Shown here piece after piece: positions 13,377 to 45,000 of a DNA stretch of 64,000 nt. Numbering within the stretch: position 1 is the first letter of the stretch; each line of letters opens with the position of its first letter. The stretch lies in assembly GCF_000427425.1 (NCBI RefSeq), contig NZ_KE386495.1:1105072-1169071 (forward strand). Reading direction: 5' to 3'. Origin of the DNA: Caldanaerobius polysaccharolyticus DSM 13641. GTDB lineage: Bacteria > Bacillota > Thermoanaerobacteria > Thermoanaerobacterales > Caldanaerobiaceae. Below the pieces are notes generated by a model. It did not search any database and was not told the DNA's origin. It was given only the letters and a program-made list of their open reading frames with translations. The translations under genes and the position numbers were made by a program.

Positions 13377-13378
13377 AA

Positions 13379-13409
13379 TTAACCCTCTGATTGATCAGAG
13401 GGTTAATTT
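13379..13409 (+). terminator. Perfect hairpin between asp23 and amaP (weak or leaky terminator)
   Basis: TTAACCCTCTGAT (13379-13391) pairs perfectly with ATCAGAGGGTTAA (13394-13406), followed by only a short T tract. It probably stops part of the transcripts after asp23, so that Asp23 is made in excess over the downstream genes, or it protects a 3' end. Confidence 0.55.
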
Positions 13410-13441: not shown

Positions 13442-13951
13442 TTGAAGTTAGTATCAAAAGTTTTGTCGGTAATTTACATAGTCAGCATATTAATTATAGC
13501 TTTAGGCGTTTTGTTGATTCCTCAAGGCAGGTTAGTGGATTGGATTAGATTTGATTATAAGTACGTTGTAGTGGGAAGCGCAGTTTATTTGCTGGTCAGC
13601 CTTTTTTTGCTTTTAATGAGCGCGTCTGGTAAAGACGTGGAATCGGTGGTTATGCTGACGGAGCATGGGGAAATAGCTTTGTCGATAGTTACTCTGGAAA
13701 ACTTGGCTAAAAGTGTGATAAATGAATTGAAAGATGTAAAAGAGGCAAAAGTTAAGGCGCATATTGTCAAAAACCAGGTGGTGTATTATATTAGTATCAT
13801 AGTGGCCAGAGATGTGGTCATTCCAGAGTTGTCGGAGAAGTTACAAAAACAGGTTATAGAATTCGTAGAGCGAAATTCAGGCATTAAAGTAGCAGCCATT
13901 AAGGTAAAAGTAGAAAATGTAGCGGCTTTTTTGAGGCACAAAGTGGAATGA
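13442..13951 (+). CDS. amaP: AmaP-like membrane anchor for Asp23
   Basis: A 169-aa protein with two N-terminal transmembrane helices (about 8-25 and 43-62) and a C-terminal domain resembling Asp23 (ESVVMLTEHGEIALSIVTLENLAKSVI). In Staphylococcus aureus AmaP tethers Asp23 to the membrane. TTG 13442 follows GGGAAGG; GTG/ATG-like codons further upstream fall in the hairpin region. It lies between asp23 and nusB, the conserved order. Confidence 0.85.
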   Translation: MKLVSKVLSVIYIVSILIIALGVLLIPQGRLVDWIRFDYKYVVVGSAVYLLVSLFLLLMSASGKDVESVVMLTEHGEIALSIVTLENLAKSVINELKDVKEAKVKAHIVKNQVVYYISIIVARDVVIPELSEKLQKQVIEFVERNSGIKVAAIKVKVENVAAFLRHKVE

Positions 13952-22799: not shown

Positions 22800-22815
22800 T
22801 GTAAAGGTGATGTCC

Positions 22816-24513
22816 ATGCTCGTTTCCCTTTCAATTAAAAATTTTGCGTTGATCGACAATATAGAAGTGTACTTTGACAGAGGTTTAAATATAATAACAG
22901 GTGAATCAGGTGCTGGTAAATCCATAATTATCGAAGCCTTGAGCCTAGTGCTAGGGGGCAGAGCGGATAAGGAAATGATAAGGGCAGGTTGCGAAAAGGC
23001 AGAGGTTGAAGCTGTGTTTGAGATAAGAAAAGATAGCGAGATCGGCGATGAATTAAGGAGCATGGGATTGCTTGAGGGGGAAGATGATCTAATAATATTG
23101 TGCAGAGAACTTGCGTCCAATGGACGAAGTGTGTGTAGGATAAACCACAAAACTGTTAATGTTTCTATTTTGAAGCGCATTGCCCACAGACTTGTGGATA
23201 TCCACGGTCAAAATGAGTACCAGGTGTTATTTGACGAATCGACTTATCAAGGGCTTCTGGATTCATTTGGAGGAGAACCGCTGAAGGCGTTAAAGGAAGA
23301 AGTAAGTAAGGTCTACCGAACATACGTGCAGATAGATCGGGAAATAGAGAAGTTAAAAGACGAGGGCAATAATCCGTTGGAAGAGGAGTTTATAAGGTAT
23401 CAGTTAAATGAAATCGCCGCTGCCAATTTAAAAGAAGGAGAAGAGGAAGAGCTTTTAAAGGCGAGAAAAATCATGAATAACGCTGAAAAGATATACGAAG
23501 CTCTTTTTAACGTTTACTCCTTATTATACGACAATAAAAACGGCCTGAGCATTTTAGAAGGTTTGGGAGAAGCTATAGAAAAATTAGAGGATATATCTCA
23601 GTACGATGGGGATATACAGGGTATAATAAAATACTTAAACGATTCGTATTATCAAATACAAGACGTGTGTGAATGCGTGCGGAAATACATGGAAAACCTG
23701 AACTTTGATCCTGAAAAATTAAATGAAGTAGAGGAAAGGCTTCACATCCTCTCTGATTTAAAGCGCAAATATGGCAGGAGCGTAGAGCAGCTGATTGAAT
23801 ACCGATCAGAATTGCAGTCAAAAATAAACAGAATTGAAAACAATATTCAAATATTGGAACAAATGCAGCGGCAGAGATCAGAGATATATGAAGAGCTGTT
23901 ACGGCGATGTTCAGATCTGTCCAGGATGAGGGAAAAAGTGGCGAGCCAGATGGAAAAGGCAGTGTCTGCCGAGTTGGACCAGTTGGGCATAAAAGGTGTG
24001 ATATTTAAAGTGCGCATAAACCCGAGGGAATTGTCGGAGAATGGTGTAGATGGCGTTGAATTTATGATAAGCACCAATCCCGGCGAACCTTTAAAACCGC
24101 TGGCTAAAGTTGTGTCGGGCGGAGAGATGTCCAGAATAATGCTGGCGTTTAAGAAGGTATTTGCTGAGGCAGATGGTATAGACACCCTTATTTTTGACGA
24201 GATAGATACCGGGATAAGTGGGCAGACCGTTCAGGTTGTGGCGGAAAAGATTTTAGAGCTGTCTTTAAAGAGACAGGTTATTTGTATTACCCATATGCCG
24301 CAAATAGCCAGTATGGCTGATACTCACTATTACATTCAAAAGGCCGTAGAAAAAGGGAGAACGCACATAAAGGTGGAAAAATTAGATGATAAAGGGCGAA
24401 TCAGAGAGATTTCTAGGATAATAAGCGGCGATAATATCACGCCTCTTGCGCTTTCCCATTCAAAAGAGATGATAGCTAACGCGATTAAATTGAAGGAAAA
24501 AATAGCTCAATGA
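22816..24513 (+). CDS. recN: DNA repair protein RecN
   Basis: SMC-like ATPase acting early in double-strand-break repair. The 565-aa product starts LVSLSIKNFALID, has Walker A GESGAGKSIIIEAL near 31-44, a long coiled-coil middle, the signature VSGGEMSRIMLAFK near 434 and Walker B LIFDEIDTGISG near 455. ATG 22816 is chosen by comparison with the usual N-terminus; ATG 22810 is also in frame. A short terminator-like hairpin follows. Confidence 0.96.
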   Translation: MLVSLSIKNFALIDNIEVYFDRGLNIITGESGAGKSIIIEALSLVLGGRADKEMIRAGCEKAEVEAVFEIRKDSEIGDELRSMGLLEGEDDLIILCRELASNGRSVCRINHKTVNVSILKRIAHRLVDIHGQNEYQVLFDESTYQGLLDSFGGEPLKALKEEVSKVYRTYVQIDREIEKLKDEGNNPLEEEFIRYQLNEIAAANLKEGEEEELLKARKIMNNAEKIYEALFNVYSLLYDNKNGLSILEGLGEAIEKLEDISQYDGDIQGIIKYLNDSYYQIQDVCECVRKYMENLNFDPEKLNEVEERLHILSDLKRKYGRSVEQLIEYRSELQSKINRIENNIQILEQMQRQRSEIYEELLRRCSDLSRMREKVASQMEKAVSAELDQLGIKGVIFKVRINPRELSENGVDGVEFMISTNPGEPLKPLAKVVSGGEMSRIMLAFKKVFAEADGIDTLIFDEIDTGISGQTVQVVAEKILELSLKRQVICITHMPQIASMADTHYYIQKAVEKGRTHIKVEKLDDKGRIREISRIISGDNITPLALSHSKEMIANAIKLKEKIAQ

Positions 24514-24523
24514 GCTCTTTTTT
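24504..24523 (+). terminator. Short terminator after recN
   Basis: AGCTC (24504-24508) pairs with GAGCT (24512-24516) over a 3-nt loop, followed by a T run. The stem is only 5 bp, so read-through into spoIVB is expected. Confidence 0.5.
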
Positions 24524-24528
24524 TATAA

Positions 24529-24558
24529 GTATAAATACCACTCCGGAGGGACATTTTA
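24529..24558 (+). promoter_or_regulatory. Candidate sigma-G/F promoter for spoIVB
   Basis: GTATA (24529-24533), 18-nt spacer and CATTTTA (24552-24558) match the forespore consensus gyATA-N17/18-CATnnTA. Transcription would begin near 24565. spoIVB is transcribed by sigma-G (and sigma-F) in B. subtilis. Confidence 0.52.
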
Positions 24559-24591
24559 TATTTGTAAGCCTATGAGGAGAGTGGTATTTAT
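24531..24591 (+). promoter_or_regulatory. Inverted repeat spanning the spoIVB promoter and start codon (read-through silencing hairpin)
   Basis: ATAAATACCACTC (24531-24543) is the exact complement of GAGTGGTATTTAT (24579-24591), 13 bp. The 3' arm covers the first two bases of the ATG at 24590 and the spacer after GAGGAG. The 5' arm lies between the -35 and -10 of the forespore promoter, so only longer transcripts from recN contain both arms. Function is inferred. Confidence 0.55.
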
Positions 24592-25861
24592 GCGTTTTAG
24601 AAAAATTGCCTGTACCGTTATAATTATTTTTATATTGGCAATAAACAATTCGCCGCTAATAAAAAACTTTGTGCAATTACCTGTTCATCAGATAGTATTC
24701 AAGGGAGAGGAATTTAAGTTAAACATAGGTTTTCCCATTTCTGTAAATATAAGAGCCAATAAAGATGGCATTATAAAAATAAATGATTTGTCAGAGAGAT
24801 ATAAGTATGTGCCTTTTTTATCTCGCTTTAGCGTAAAGGCAGAAGATGTCGGAAAGGCTATAATGAACTTTAAGCTGCTGGGCTTAATCCCTGTTAAAAA
24901 CGTGACGCTAGATGTGGTGCCCAGAAAGTACGTGATCGCTGGGGGAGAGTCTATAGGCGTGAGGATTAATACAAAAGGGGTTATTGTGGTGGGTTTTTCA
25001 GACATCACTGATCCTACGGGGAAAGCGCGCTGCCCTGGTAAAGAAGCAGGGGTGAGAGTGGGTGATACCCTTTTGAAGATAGACAACCAGGATATAAAAG
25101 ACAGCGATAGCATTGTAGACCTCTTAAGCAAAAAAGAAGGTAAAACATTATCGCTGCAAGTTCAGAGGGACCAGCGTGTGATACAATTAAAGGTAAACCC
25201 TGTAAAGTCAAGGGATGATGGCGAGTACAAATTAGGGCTGTGGGTAAGGGATCACACTTCTGGAATAGGAACTCTTACTTTTATAGATCCGGAAAACAAT
25301 AGATTTGGGGCTTTGGGACATCCTATAACGGATGTAGATACAGGACAGATGCTTTCTATAAGCGATGGAGATATTATGCGCGCTCATATTACATCCGTCA
25401 AACAAGGATACAAAAGTAGGCCAGGGGAGATTAAAGGCATATTTGTCGAAGGCGAAGATACCATAGGCAAAATAGAAAAAAATACTAAATACGGCATTTA
25501 TGGAACATTGTACGCCAGTCCATCGATTAAAAGATTGTATCCTATAGGGTATCAATCACAGGTAAAACCAGGTCCGGCCAAGATATTGACTACTATTGAA
25601 GGGGATAAGGTGGGGGAGTACGATATACAGATTCAAAAAGTAGTAAAACAGGATCAGCCTAATCCCAAGAGTATGATCATAAAAATAACCGATCCGTATT
25701 TGTTAAAGCGCACAGGAGGTATTGTTCAAGGGATGAGCGGAAGCCCTATAATCCAGGATAACCGGCTTGTAGGCGCAGTTACCCATGTTTTTATAAATGA
25801 CCCTACGAGGGGTTACGGTATTTATATTGAGTGGATGATTAGGGAGGCTGATAGAAAATAA
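24590..25861 (+). CDS. spoIVB: Stage IV sporulation protein B (signalling serine protease)
   Basis: Forespore-secreted S55 peptidase that triggers pro-sigma-K processing by cleaving SpoIVFA. The 423-aa product has an N-terminal membrane/signal helix, a PDZ domain near 105-200 (KEAGVRVGDTLLKIDNQDI), and the protease domain with the catalytic His in FGALGHPITD, Asp in ITDPYLL and Ser in QGMSGSPIIQ. ATG 24590 fits the GAGGAG site; ATG 24572 would lie only a few bases from the predicted transcript start. Conserved recN-spoIVB-spo0A order. Confidence 0.95.
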   Translation: MRFRKIACTVIIIFILAINNSPLIKNFVQLPVHQIVFKGEEFKLNIGFPISVNIRANKDGIIKINDLSERYKYVPFLSRFSVKAEDVGKAIMNFKLLGLIPVKNVTLDVVPRKYVIAGGESIGVRINTKGVIVVGFSDITDPTGKARCPGKEAGVRVGDTLLKIDNQDIKDSDSIVDLLSKKEGKTLSLQVQRDQRVIQLKVNPVKSRDDGEYKLGLWVRDHTSGIGTLTFIDPENNRFGALGHPITDVDTGQMLSISDGDIMRAHITSVKQGYKSRPGEIKGIFVEGEDTIGKIEKNTKYGIYGTLYASPSIKRLYPIGYQSQVKPGPAKILTTIEGDKVGEYDIQIQKVVKQDQPNPKSMIIKITDPYLLKRTGGIVQGMSGSPIIQDNRLVGAVTHVFINDPTRGYGIYIEWMIREADRK

Positions 25862-35585: not shown

Positions 35586-36737
35586 ATGAAGTTCAGGAAG
35601 ATTGTATTCACAATTGCCCTTGTGGGAATGCTGTTTTTCAACCTTTTGCAACCTGCTTTTGCTCAACAAGACGTGCCTGACTTTAAGTTAACCTCTAAAG
35701 CCGCTGTTTTAATGGATGCAGCTAGCGGCAAGGTTCTGTACGAATACAACGCTCATAAGAGATTGCCTCCGGCCAGCATTACTAAGATAATGAGCATGTT
35801 GCTTTTCATGGAAGCGATTGATTCCGGTAGAATAAAGGTCACCGATATGGTGACTGCCAGCGAACGGGCCAGTAGCATGGGTGGATCTCAAGTTTACCTT
35901 GCCCCTGGTGAGGAGATGTCTGTAGACGACTTGATGAAGGCTATAGCTATAGCATCGGGCAATGATGCCACAGTGGCGTTGGCAGAGTACATCGCGGGTA
36001 CCGAAGAGATGTTTGTAAAAATGATGAATAAAAAGGCAAAGGAGCTGGGGCTTAAGGATACCCATTTTGTAAACAGCACAGGGCTTCCGGCCAAAGATCA
36101 TTATACGAGTGCGTACGATGTGGCTGTTATATCCAGAGAGCTGATTACAAAGCACCCTGGGGTTTTAAAGTGGACAAAGATATACTTGGATACTTTAAGA
36201 AAAGGTGAGTTTGGCCTTGCCAATACGAACAAACTGGTTCGGTTTTACAGGGGAGCTGATGGGATAAAAACGGGTTCTACCAACGAAGCGGGGTTTTGCC
36301 TAGCGGCTACTGCTTTGCGCGACGGGATGAGGTTGATATCCGTTGTATTTGGAGCCCCTGATTCCAAGCGGAGATTTGACGAGGCTTCAAGGTTGTTGGA
36401 CTATGGATTCGCCAGCTATAAGTCTTATCAGGTAGCAGGTAAAGGACAGGTTATACGGCGGTTAAAGGTGGAAAAAGGGCTTGCCAGTGAAATCCAAGCG
36501 GTGGCGTCCGATGATTTGAGCGTACTTATCAGAAAAGGTGAAGATGAAAGCATAAAAAAGAAAATAGTGCTACCTCAAAAGGTTGTAGCGCCGGTAAAAA
36601 AAGGGCAGAAATTGGGTGAAATAATCGTGTACAAGAGCGGCGTGGAGGTTTCAAGATTGCCTATAATAGCCGGCCAATCAGTGAAGAAAGCGGGCGTTGT
36701 GGACTATTATATCCGCATACTAAATAAGTGGTTGTAA
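35586..36737 (+). CDS. dacF: D-alanyl-D-alanine carboxypeptidase (DacF)
   Basis: Low-molecular-weight penicillin-binding protein trimming stem peptides, in B. subtilis produced in the forespore to tune cortex cross-linking. The 383-aa product has a signal peptide (cleavage after AFA), the SxxK motif S64-I-T-K67, the SGN motif at 124-126 and KTG in DGIKTGSTNEAG near 228, then the PBP5 C-terminal domain and an amphipathic tail. ATG 35586 has AGGAGG. It lies directly upstream of spoIIAA, the conserved order in Bacillus and Clostridia. Confidence 0.95.
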   Translation: MKFRKIVFTIALVGMLFFNLLQPAFAQQDVPDFKLTSKAAVLMDAASGKVLYEYNAHKRLPPASITKIMSMLLFMEAIDSGRIKVTDMVTASERASSMGGSQVYLAPGEEMSVDDLMKAIAIASGNDATVALAEYIAGTEEMFVKMMNKKAKELGLKDTHFVNSTGLPAKDHYTSAYDVAVISRELITKHPGVLKWTKIYLDTLRKGEFGLANTNKLVRFYRGADGIKTGSTNEAGFCLAATALRDGMRLISVVFGAPDSKRRFDEASRLLDYGFASYKSYQVAGKGQVIRRLKVEKGLASEIQAVASDDLSVLIRKGEDESIKKKIVLPQKVVAPVKKGQKLGEIIVYKSGVEVSRLPIIAGQSVKKAGVVDYYIRILNKWL

Positions 36738-36767
36738 AAAATCTCTCATTGTAATGAGAGATTTTTT
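36736..36767 (+). terminator. Rho-independent terminator after dacF
   Basis: AAAAAATCTCTCATT (36736-36750) and AATGAGAGATTTTTT (36753-36767) form a 15-bp perfect stem that ends in T6; the stem is also a terminator on the other strand. Confidence 0.9.
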
Positions 36768-36776
36768 ACATTAATA

Positions 36777-41428: not shown

Positions 41429-42181
41429 GTGAATTATATAGTCAAATTAGATGACTTTGAAGGGCCACTGGATCTGCTGGTATATTTGATAGAGAAATCA
41501 AAGGTTGATATCGCCCATATTTCAATTAACAGCATAGCAGATCAGTACCTTGAGTACATAAAGAATATGGATTCCATAAATATGGATGTGGCTAGCGACT
41601 TTTTAGTTATGGCATCTACGCTTTTGAAGTTAAAGTCAGAGAGCCTCCTTCCCAAGAGGCAAATCCAAGATAAACAGTTGAGCATTGATGAAACAGATCC
41701 TCAGGAAATCTTACGGCAAAGGTTAGTGGAGTATAAAAAGTATAAAGCCCGTGCTCAAAAGCTGGCCGGCAATTATGAAGCCCAGAGGTCTTTTTATAGA
41801 AATAGTCCTGTTTTGATGAATGATTTTCAAATGATTAGATTTAAACTAAAGGAAATCCCTTTAAAAAAGCTTACAGGCGCTTATGCAAAGCTCGTTAGAG
41901 AAAAACAAAACAGCGCGATTCAGCGGAGGATAGCGCATAATCACATAAAAGCTATGAAACCTATAAATATTGAGGAAAAGATAGAGTTTTTAAAGCGGAT
42001 TATATGCATAAGAAAGACCATAACGTTTTATTATCTAATGGATATATCCCGTGAGAGAAGTGAGATTATCGCTTACTTTTTGGCTGTGTTGGAGATGCTC
42101 AGACTGAGACAGATATATGCTTTCCAAAAGAAAAACTTCGGCGATATCGTTTTGAAGGGTGTGGTTGAAGGTGACAGATGA
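41429..42181 (+). CDS. scpA: Segregation and condensation protein A
   Basis: A 250-aa kleisin of the SMC-ScpAB complex, with the N-terminal YIVKLDDFEGPLDLLVYLIEK signature, an acidic linker and the C-terminal winged helix (YFLAVLEMLRLRQIYAFQ). It bridges SMC heads and organises the chromosome. GTG 41429 is favoured (AAGGTG upstream); ATG 41414 is in frame. Confidence 0.96.
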   Translation: MNYIVKLDDFEGPLDLLVYLIEKSKVDIAHISINSIADQYLEYIKNMDSINMDVASDFLVMASTLLKLKSESLLPKRQIQDKQLSIDETDPQEILRQRLVEYKKYKARAQKLAGNYEAQRSFYRNSPVLMNDFQMIRFKLKEIPLKKLTGAYAKLVREKQNSAIQRRIAHNHIKAMKPINIEEKIEFLKRIICIRKTITFYYLMDISRERSEIIAYFLAVLEMLRLRQIYAFQKKNFGDIVLKGVVEGDR

Positions 42182-42677
42182 GGAAATAAAAGGAGCGATA
42201 GAGGCGATTTTGTTTTTGTCAGGCTCTAAAGTAAGGAAGGAGGAACTGACCAATTATTTTTCAATAGACGAGAAGCACCTGGAGTCCATCGTAGAAAGTA
42301 TAAATGAAGAAGCTGAGGTAAACAAACGGGGCATCATTATATCAAAGGTAGACGATGGCTATCAAATGGGCACAAGTCCGCGGGTTCACGATTGTGTAGC
42401 GGACTTCTTTAGCATAGAGCGGGAATTGGATTTGTCCCAGGCTGCACTGGAGGTGCTGGCGATCGTAGCTTATAACCAACCTGTGACAAGGCAACAGATA
42501 GAGGAGATAAGGGGAGTGCGCAGCGACAAAGCTATTGCTACGCTGTTGGAAAGGGGGCTTATTGCGGAAGTGGATAGGCTTGATTCCATAGGCCATCCTA
42601 TAGTGTATGGTACCACTGACGAATTTTTAAGGTGTTTTAATTTAAAAAGCATTGAGGATTTAAAAGCATTAGAATAA
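42171..42677 (+). CDS. scpB: Segregation and condensation protein B
   Basis: A 168-aa protein with two winged-helix domains (EIKGAIEAILFLSGSKV; QAALEVLAIVAYNQPVTRQQIEEIRGV). Dimers bind ScpA. GTG 42171 overlaps scpA by 11 nt. The stop codon overlaps the -35 of a forespore-type promoter. Confidence 0.96.
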   Translation: MTDEEIKGAIEAILFLSGSKVRKEELTNYFSIDEKHLESIVESINEEAEVNKRGIIISKVDDGYQMGTSPRVHDCVADFFSIERELDLSQAALEVLAIVAYNQPVTRQQIEEIRGVRSDKAIATLLERGLIAEVDRLDSIGHPIVYGTTDEFLRCFNLKSIEDLKALE

Positions 42678-42701
42678 TTATACAAAATAAAGTCCATACT
42701 T
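42672..42701 (+). promoter_or_regulatory. Candidate sigma-G/F promoter for ytfI-ytfJ-dacB
   Basis: GAATA (42672-42676), 18-nt spacer and CATACTT (42695-42701) match TGAATA-17/18-CATACTA with one mismatch in the -10. Transcription would start near 42708, only a few bases before the ribosome site. Confidence 0.52.
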
Positions 42702-42729
42702 TCTTTATGAAAGGAGGACTTTATTTTGT
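42682..42729 (+). promoter_or_regulatory. Perfect 14-bp hairpin hiding the ytfI start (read-through silencing hairpin)
   Basis: ACAAAATAAAGTCC (42682-42695) is the exact complement of GGACTTTATTTTGT (42716-42729). The 3' arm contains the end of the ribosome site and the whole TTG start (42726-42728); an inner stem CTTTC/GAAAG (42699-42703 and 42709-42713) pairs the rest of the AAAGGAGG. The 5' arm lies in the promoter spacer, so RNA from the forespore promoter lacks it. A weak terminator role of the same stem is an alternative. Confidence 0.62.
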
Positions 42730-43409
42730 ATGTTCTCGTGGTTTTATTGGTACTCATTGCCATCATTTTTGCACCTTTAAGGTTTAACCTGACGCTGATG
42801 AGATTAGGAGACGATGATTTAGTAAAGATCTCCATAGACGTGTATTACATAAAGGTGCTAAGGGTTGAAATAGACTATGTGGATCTATTGGCCCAAAAAG
42901 ATCATAAGGGCTTAAGGTATAATATCATTTTAAGATACGTGTTCCCTATTTTACTCAACAAAAGCGATAAAAAGCAATTTAGCTATGATAAAATAAGGAA
43001 GATAATAAAAGACATAGTTGCTTTTAGATTTAAATACCGCAGAGGTATAGATTACATATTAGAGAATGTAACGGTGAAAAAATTTGAGCTATCAGCCTCT
43101 GTAGGGCTTCGCGATGCCGCTATGACTGCTATTGTCACAGGAGCCCTGTATGCCCTTATAAATTCTTTTCTGGCTTGTGCTTCCTCGTACATCAAGTTTA
43201 CAGATATGCCTTTGATTTCTATTAAACCGGACTTTGGGCGTTTAAACTTTGAATTGTCCATCACGAGTATAATTGCGACGAGATTAGCTCAAATTATTAT
43301 CGGAAGCTTTTTGATATTATTAGGAGGTATGAGCTATGAGCGAACATCCAATGGATGGTTTGATGAAGACGACCATGGAAAGCTTAAAGGATATAGTAGA
43401 TGTCAATAA
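42726..43409 (+). CDS. ytfI: DUF2953 family protein (YtfI-like)
   Basis: A 227-aa protein with an N-terminal transmembrane helix (VLVVLLVLIAIIFAPL) and a DUF2953 domain containing a second hydrophobic segment near 135-155 and one near 190-205. It is linked to ytfJ in sporulating Firmicutes and probably acts in spores; its activity is unknown. TTG 42726 follows AAAGGAGG by 8 nt. It overlaps ytfJ by 74 nt. Confidence 0.83.
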   Translation: MYVLVVLLVLIAIIFAPLRFNLTLMRLGDDDLVKISIDVYYIKVLRVEIDYVDLLAQKDHKGLRYNIILRYVFPILLNKSDKKQFSYDKIRKIIKDIVAFRFKYRRGIDYILENVTVKKFELSASVGLRDAAMTAIVTGALYALINSFLACASSYIKFTDMPLISIKPDFGRLNFELSITSIIATRLAQIIIGSFLILLGGMSYERTSNGWFDEDDHGKLKGYSRCQ

Positions 43410-43782
43410 AATAGTGGGAGATCCCGTGGAAACCCCTGATGGATCAGTAATAATACCTGTGTCAAAATTAAGCTTTGGCTACGCTGCAGGGGGCGGTGAG
43501 TATGAGATCAAGAAAAAGAAAGAACCTAAAGATAGCCCAGAGCAAGAGGGATCTGATAAAGGCAGTGCTTCCAAGCCTTTTGCTGGGGGTAGTGGTGCAG
43601 GGGTCACCATTAGACCTGTGGCATTCCTGGTGGTAGGTCAAGGTCAGATAAAATTATTGCCCGTTGATACCAATGTAACGTTAGATAAAGTTATCGACTT
43701 GATACCTGAATTAATGGATGATGTACAGAGCTTTTTGAAATCTAAAAACAATACTGCGGCTTCCCCTGGTGTTTCTCAATAG
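43336..43782 (+). CDS. ytfJ: GerW family sporulation protein (YtfJ-like)
   Basis: A 148-aa protein of the GerW/YtfJ family: N-terminal LMKTTMESLKDIVDVNKIVGDPVETPDG, VIIPVSKLSFGYAAGGGEY, a variable Gly/Ser/Lys linker, and ITVRPVAFLVV-like core. In B. subtilis YtfJ is a forespore protein needed for normal germination. ATG 43336 has TAGGAGG and lies in the end of ytfI. Confidence 0.92.
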   Translation: MSEHPMDGLMKTTMESLKDIVDVNKIVGDPVETPDGSVIIPVSKLSFGYAAGGGEYEIKKKKEPKDSPEQEGSDKGSASKPFAGGSGAGVTIRPVAFLVVGQGQIKLLPVDTNVTLDKVIDLIPELMDDVQSFLKSKNNTAASPGVSQ

Positions 43783-43791
43783 GGTGATTTG

Positions 43792-44915
43792 ATGAAAAGG
43801 CTAGGATTTATTTTTGCTCTAATTGCCTTATTTCAGGTGTTTTTTAATTGTGGCCCAGTACAAGCAGTTCAGACTCCCCCTGAGATAAGCGCAAAAGCGG
43901 CGGTGGTAATGGAGGCCAGTACAAGGAGGATACTATATGCAAAAAACGAGGATTTAAGACTCCCTATGGCTAGCACCACCAAGATAATGACTGCTATACT
44001 GGCTGTTGAAAAAGGTAGGTTGGACGATACCGTCAGTGTATCTCATAAGGCTGTATACGTGGAAGGCTCTAAAATTTATTTAAAGCCAGGGGAAAAATAA
44101 AACTGGAAGACCTGATATATGGGGTGATGCTGGAATCGGGAAATGATGCGGCCATTGCTGTGGCAGAGCATATAGGAGGAAGTTTGGATAATTTTGTGCA
44201 CATGATGAATGCCAAGGCCTTGAGCATAGGGGCATATGATACCCATTTCAACAATCCCCACGGCCTGGATTCGGGCATCGAAGATCATTTTACCACTGCT
44301 AAAGATCTAGCGTTGATAACGGCGTATGCATTAAGAAACCCGATTTTTTCTAAGATCGTATCAACTAAAACTAAGACGATATCATCTAGTGGCGTTGAAA
44401 AAAGATATTTTTCCAACCATAATAAGATGTTATGGATATATCCAGGCGCTGATGGGGTAAAGACAGGCTATACCAGGAAAGCAGGCAGGTGCCTTGTTAC
44501 ATCTGCTACTAGGGACGGCATGCAATTGATCGTAGTCACTCTCAACGACCCCAACGATTGGAAAGATACAGAAAACCTTTTAAACTACGGATTTGAAAAT
44601 TTTAAATACAGAAAGATTGTATCTAAAGGCGATGTGTTAAAGGTCTTACCTGTATACAATGGCAGACAACAGCGCATATCATTAACAGCTTCATCGGATG
44701 TTTATTTGCCTGTTGGAGACAATGAGTTCTCTACTCTCAAAATTAAGTTTATGGTACCTGCTTATTTTTACGCGCCTATATATAAGGGGACGAAATTAGG
44801 ATATGCAGCTATATATGTAGGGGAAAAGAGGATAGCATTGGTAGATCTTTTGGCTTCTGAGTCCATAGATGAGGATAAATCGAATCTTATAGGTATTTTA
44901 AAGAGCATAATCTAG
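43792..44915 (+). pseudogene. dacB: D-alanyl-D-alanine carboxypeptidase (DacB type), interrupted by a one-base deletion
   Basis: The first part (43792-44100) has a signal peptide and the SxxK motif in ASTTKIMTA, and ends in YLKPGEK. The second part (from 44101, other frame) continues as LEDLIYGVMLESGNDAAIAVAE (SGN motif) and DGVKTGYTRKAG (KTG motif) to a PBP5-like C-terminal domain. Inserting one A in the A5 run at 44093-44097 restores GEKIKLEDLIYG and a full product of about 374 aa. Either a homopolymer sequencing error or a real mutation. It follows ytfJ, as the spore-cortex carboxypeptidase gene often does in Clostridia. Confidence 0.9.
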
Positions 44916-44938: not shown

Positions 44939-44965
44939 ACAAAAAGTCAACGCATTCATAACATA
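44939..44965 (+). promoter_or_regulatory. Candidate sigma-K promoter for the redox pair
   Basis: AC (44939-44940), 16-nt spacer and CATAACATA (44957-44965) match the sigma-K pattern AC-N16/17-CATAnnnTA. Transcription would begin near 44972. The -35 is too short to be decisive. Confidence 0.38.
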
Positions 44966-45000
44966 GTAATTAGAGGTGCTCATGGAGGTGAATGCGTTGA
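44947..45000 (+). promoter_or_regulatory. Perfect 12-bp hairpin hiding the start of the redox gene (read-through silencing hairpin)
   Basis: TCAACGCATTCA (44947-44958) is the exact complement of TGAATGCGTTGA (44989-45000), which includes the TTG start at 44997-44999; the ribosome site GGAGG (44984-44988) lies beside it in the loop. The 5' arm is inside the candidate promoter spacer, as at spoIVB and ytfI. Confidence 0.55.

Follow-up and report, generated by a model that had tools for sequence, protein, structure and literature searches.

A promoter-embedded inverted repeat as a probable translational lock on spoIVB against recN read-through

In the window analysed here (the whole stretch of 64,000 nucleotides from Caldanaerobius polysaccharolyticus DSM 13641), a perfect 13-bp inverted repeat upstream of spoIVB connects the promoter of this gene with its ATG at 24590, and we judge, at a probability of roughly 80%, that it forms an RNA hairpin serving as a translational lock against mRNA that reads through from recN. 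RNA polymerase continuing from recN would copy both arms of the hairpin, the start codon and its spacer to the Shine-Dalgarno (SD) sequence would be caught in a stem of 13-15 bp, and ribosomes would be unable to start. A polymerase carrying sigmaF or sigmaG would initiate at the promoter overlapping the 5′ arm, and its RNA, beginning at ~24565 without that arm, would be translated. Since only RNA from the forespore promoter would escape the stem, translation of spoIVB would be tied to this promoter. One short stretch would then be both a promoter and half of a translation lock, with the RNA translated only if started in the right compartment. Developmental genes often stand behind housekeeping genes, and how silence is kept there is rarely asked. 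What the sequences show is the repeat, a conserved promoter motif and its place, a difference in predicted accessibility, an architecture kept in relatives, and an exchange with terminators; where exactly the native RNA begins, how much read-through occurs, which sigma factor acts, and what the lock does to translation are inferred.

All features described here lie on the forward strand unless stated otherwise. The spoIVB gene (24590..25861; TIGR02860, 500.5 bits vs a curated cut-off of 305.25) starts 76 nt downstream of the co-directional recN (22807..24513; TIGR00634, 549 bits, over cut-off), the presumed source of read-through. No strong terminator is present at the end of recN, only a weak terminator-like hairpin (24504..24524) with a 5-bp stem (24504-24508/24512-24516, -4.2 kcal/mol) followed by T7, which is absent from the genus relative (L004). 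The 5′ arm of the repeat, ATAAATACCACTC (24531..24543, extending to 24529), overlaps the -35 element and the promoter spacer, while its exact reverse complement GAGTGGTATTTAT (24579..24591, extending to 24593) makes up the 3′ arm, and the pairing is prolonged to GTATAAATACCACTC/GAGTGGTATTTATGC. These arms are included in the longest inverted repeat of the window, an imperfect one (24518-24543/24579-24604, 26 nt, 81%) that starts in the T-run just after the recN stop. The SD AGGAG (24575..24579, at a homologous position in relatives) lies mostly just within the hairpin loop; the stem proper takes in the SD-to-ATG spacer and the ATG, and the extended 3′ arm (24579-24593) covers the SD end, the spacer, and the ATG. 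Start codons were assigned from SD sequences and alignment. The loop also contains an in-frame ATG (24572), but the homologous starts of relatives align with 24590; were translation to begin at 24572 instead, it would be less tightly locked.

The promoter is an exact match to the sigmaF/sigmaG pattern (GNATA, 15 nt, GGNNANNNT) and is conserved through the order. Its -35 element GTATA (24529..24533) is kept with the 15-nt spacing at almost every spoIVB locus in the order, the -10 element GGACATTTTA (24549..24558) is likewise conserved in relatives, and the two stand 14-16 nt apart (nearly always 15) in all order relatives listed; in most Clostridium loci the promoter takes the form GCATA...GGGNAANTTA. 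Used as a genome-wide finder, the sigmaF/G pattern was not enriched (43 matches vs 77 in the reversed control), and promoter calls therefore lean on position and conservation. By its sequence this appears to be a good promoter of the sigmaF/sigmaG type, presumably used by one of these factors; in Bacillus subtilis, both sigmaF and sigmaG control spoIVB (Gomez and Cutting 1996, as cited in PMC12251134). Spacing places the predicted start of the native RNA at 24565, ~7 nt past the -10 element. An earlier note on this DNA, made from the sequence alone, had given the positions of the 13-bp repeat and its pairing with the ATG exactly, and its -35 element stands as well, while its -10 element (24552-24558) is better read as the longer one given above; the weak 5-bp recN terminator that it described is real yet slight.

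Predicted folding separates the two RNAs. Read-through RNA folds at -37.5 kcal/mol vs -24.8 ± 3.4 for shuffles (z -3.7; 0/200), whereas RNA from 24565 is unremarkable against its shuffles (z -0.3). Scored for pairing of start sites with upstream sequence, against a background of 419 SD-bearing ORFs in 464 kb of the same genome (the window plus 20 spaced stretches), spoIVB reaches 33.7 and ranks second of the 419 (mean 17.0, sd 3.6). At 65 °C the predicted cost of opening the spoIVB start site is 8.9 kcal/mol in read-through RNA vs 2.7 in native RNA, and trimming the read-through RNA lowers the cost by 6.2 kcal/mol, a difference that ranks fifth of 419 genes. As the RNA 5′ end is shifted from 24528 to 24544, the cost falls from ~10 to ~3 kcal/mol (65 °C), so that RNAs begun at 24544 or later are predicted to have an open start site, including the native one, which lacks the 5′ arm; the identical drop is predicted at 37 and 55 °C. 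The hairpin is not an intrinsic terminator, in which a compact G+C-rich stem would run straight into a T-run: it is A+T-rich, has a 35-nt loop, and is followed by GCGTTTTAG within coding sequence, and Rfam covariance models gave no family match to it (a sub-threshold antisense match only, E 0.26).

Relatives were compared across six genera in three families of the order, where the number of loci should not be taken for a number of events. The pairing is strong in g1, f2, and g5, takes the form of a weak stem over the -10 element in g3, and is absent in g6. Within the genus, no pair of the 15-bp stem is lost in the relative G001, whose two arm changes both yield G-U (one of them making the start codon GTG) and whose loop has changed as well. 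Genus g5 (ten genomes) has a stem of its own, TCTCACTTCCTTTT/AAAAGGAAGTGAGA (14 bp), with a 5′ arm of unrelated sequence upstream of the -35 element, and family f2 places its 5′ arm within the promoter spacer, opposite a different 12-bp partner that is shifted upstream. Stem scores in g5 and f2 were reached by 0/100 shuffles, that of f2 depending on a wider 3′ window, and swapping arm partners between clades reduces pairing (permutation fraction ~0.03). With too few species per stem type at spoIVB for a covariation test, the comparison suggests conservation through pairing kept by wobble and through replaced arms. The g3 arms over the -10 element (AATTTAATCA/TGATTAAATT) were considered as a lock and set aside, since the pairing there is weak and several members have it in reduced form or not at all. 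No convincing hairpin of this kind was found at the Clostridium, Tissierellia, and Caloramator spoIVB loci (L033-L112).

The same comparison bears on two other explanations of the repeat. As a dyad overlapping the -35 element, it could be an operator in the DNA at which a regulator acts on the spoIVB promoter, but 48 bp separate its arms, whose sequences vary from clade to clade and among the genes of a single genome with complementarity kept, and G-U changes are tolerated by RNA only, which makes an operator highly improbable. Alternatively, the native RNA might start further upstream and contain the hairpin, which would then tune or time translation as an RBS hairpin or thermosensor. The sigG mRNA of B. 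subtilis has such a small leader hairpin (PMC5942855), and the organism is probably thermophilic, judging by the likeness of its relatives to Thermoanaerobacter-like bacteria; in every clade with the hairpin, nevertheless, the conserved promoter is located on the 5′ arm, within it, or downstream of it, and the stem is predicted to be still blocking at 65 °C, so we regard an upstream start as very unlikely. A lock on read-through RNA fits what the earlier note had proposed, namely that a transcript from about 24565 has its start region free and that recN read-through would be silenced. Both parts are backed by predicted folding and by comparison, two of the checks suggested there: structure prediction for the read-through and native 5′ ends gave a closed and an open start site, and the upstream regions of relatives carry the pairing in the genus, in a second family, and in a large genus of a third family.

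The hairpin further appears to trade places with terminators of recN, which is directly upstream of spoIVB in nearly all loci. Among 94 recN-spoIVB loci, a stem score of at least 28 was found in 10, all of which have gaps of 74-120 nt and two of which, in f2, have a (weak) terminator; the remaining 84 all have gaps of at least 131 nt, with a clear recN terminator in 80. The association of hairpin and terminator across the 94 loci (Fisher p 2e-7) ignores relatedness, and with the relatives forming few clades it would correspond to at least two switches rather than 94 independent cases. Sister genera show both states, g3 and g6 having a terminator without a strong hairpin and g5 a hairpin without a terminator. 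Such an exchange is predicted of a device against read-through, and no rival predicts both the exchange and a fixed position of the 3′ arm. Chance complementarity at spoIVB, for which one may point to high scores elsewhere (e.g., two genes in L172), is opposed by the shuffles, the rank among 419 genes, the relatives, the partner swaps, and this 94-locus pattern, and is hardly credible.

Similar layouts occur at other genes of forespore type. In the 464-kb sample, four of the five ORFs with a close upstream sigmaF/G-type promoter have a promoter-embedded arm that pairs with the start site: ytfI after scpB, spoIVB after recN, sigG after sigE, and a VWA gene after spoIIE. The ytfI-like gene (DUF2953; 42726..43409) lies behind scpB (42159-42677) and upstream of ytfJ (43336-43782) (PF11167, PF09579, PF04079). 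Its promoter, GAATA-N15-GTCCATACT (42672..42700), holds most of the 5′ arm ATACAAAATAAAGTCC (42680..42695) in its spacer, and the 3′ arm GGACTTTATTTTGTAT (42716..42731), 100% complementary, covers the SD and start. This perfect 16-bp repeat (42680-42731) is the best start-site stem of the 419 genes (rank 1); it is conserved in the genus only, with the core of the 5′ arm kept in L192. For sigG, the layout is found in g1, f2, and g5 with differing sequences, but upstream of it in g3 and g6 there is no strong hairpin and no obvious terminator either, which are exceptions to the rule. The arm is missing from an alpha/beta SASP gene whose promoter is similar, as one would expect only of a gene that read-through does not reach.

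The VWA gene after spoIIE (L289:1-3678 and L290-L304) has the layout in all order members whose upstream region was read. In twelve relatives outside the genus, GAATA is followed after exactly 15 nt by the -10 element and the spacer between them pairs with the SD. Across seven distinct sequences of this stem, both sides have changed in 6 of 14 pairs with 91.8% of cells paired, a covariation score reached by 0/500 shuffles, while slid partners are 44-64% paired. Within the genus there is another stem, which extends into codons 2-5 and shows a double compensatory change between two species. These genes weigh on the idea that the hairpin serves recN, stabilising or processing the 3′ end of its mRNA (e.g., as a stem for RNase III or one that blocks exonucleases) and so substituting for a terminator. 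The hairpin does occur where recN is without a strong terminator, and the extended repeat starts right after the recN stop; yet the 3′ arm always lies on the downstream SD or start, including at sigG, ytfI, and the VWA gene, which have other upstream genes, and 3′-end protection needs no such position; in the genus VWA gene the stem extends even into codons 2-5. We consider a role in the recN 3′ end unlikely. Extending the lock at spoIVB to these genes, we lean, with some reserve, towards a wider reading, in which forespore promoters of the order that stand behind other genes would double as anti-Shine-Dalgarno arms, their -35/-10 spacer or flank being selected to pair with their own start site and translation depending on the promoter from which the RNA came; such a lock would arise repeatedly and be interchangeable with a terminator.

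There are precedents for parts of this arrangement. At B. subtilis sigG (spoIIIG), a large hairpin was proposed to block translation of spoIIGA-sigE read-through (Masuda et al. 1988, as cited in PMC5942855); as the citing paper describes, RNA made from the sigmaF/G promoter of sigG itself is unable to form it (PMC5942855). Like sigG there, spoIVB is a forespore gene behind another gene with a hairpin formed in read-through only; unlike it, spoIVB stands behind recN and in another order, with terminator exchange and several genes involved, and the arms are likened by description. In phage T4, a stable structure sequesters the RBS of I-TevI, -II, -III, soc, and e in long RNA and a later promoter serves the gene (PMC2988022), though these are phage genes with middle or late promoters and no developmental sigma factor. 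The IS200 transposase is protected against impinging transcription by a stem-loop occluding its ribosome binding site (PMC3196728). Unlike spoIVB, IS200 is a mobile element and also uses a terminator stem. The transposase genes of Tn10 and IS50 are likewise protected from impinging transcription. As far as sequence can tell, spoIVB appears to have the features of a read-through-silencing hairpin with an internal promoter of the sigG/T4 type, with a 3′ arm on the SD and start, a promoter at the 5′ arm, a co-directional recN without a strong terminator, and pairing in relatives. A literature search on read-through into spoIVB found nothing, and the lock at this gene, its recurrence, the use of a promoter spacer as an anti-Shine-Dalgarno arm, and the exchange with terminators are new. 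What was a single B. subtilis case (sigG) may become a general rule, and recurrence at four forespore-type genes together with terminator exchange makes insulation from read-through testable by comparison and simple reporters.

As to why spoIVB might be locked, pro-sigmaK processing in B. subtilis is triggered by SpoIVB, the signalling protease of the forespore (PMC12251134). Two BofA genes are present in the genome, as is a sigK whose N-terminus is pro-like, but an M50 search gave no SpoIVFB candidate, its only matches being an RseP-like protein and, upstream of scpA, a small M50 protein. Premature activation of sigmaK, the reason offered in the earlier note, is plausible by analogy; it is safer to speak of protection against SpoIVB made in vegetative cells or the mother cell generally.

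Several other repeats were noticed in passing. The third-ranked gene of the start-site screen (13412) was rejected for a mis-assigned start, the hairpin there lying between two genes; this is a perfect 15-bp intergenic hairpin with a 2-nt loop (13377-13408), shortly before an AmaP-like gene that probably starts with the TTG at 13444. A perfect 18-bp repeat with a 2-nt loop (36733-36770) lies upstream of spoIIA-like genes. Downstream of the ytfI region, a dacF-like frame (43793-44915) is apparently interrupted near 44100 (AAAAATAAAACTGG) and taken up again at 44124, by sequencing error or as a pseudogene, and behind it a 12-bp repeat (TCAACGCATTCA/TGAATGCGTTGA, 44947-45000) covers the TTG with which an NF004470-like FAD/NAD-binding gene starts. 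Elsewhere, TCATCAAAAAATCACTCC at a beta-lactamase-like gene (L182:15085, minus strand) pairs with the gene's own SD, perhaps the same device with a mother-cell promoter, and strong SD-sequestering stems occur at a DnaD-like gene and a solute-binding protein gene (L172:3147 and L172:10593, minus strand).
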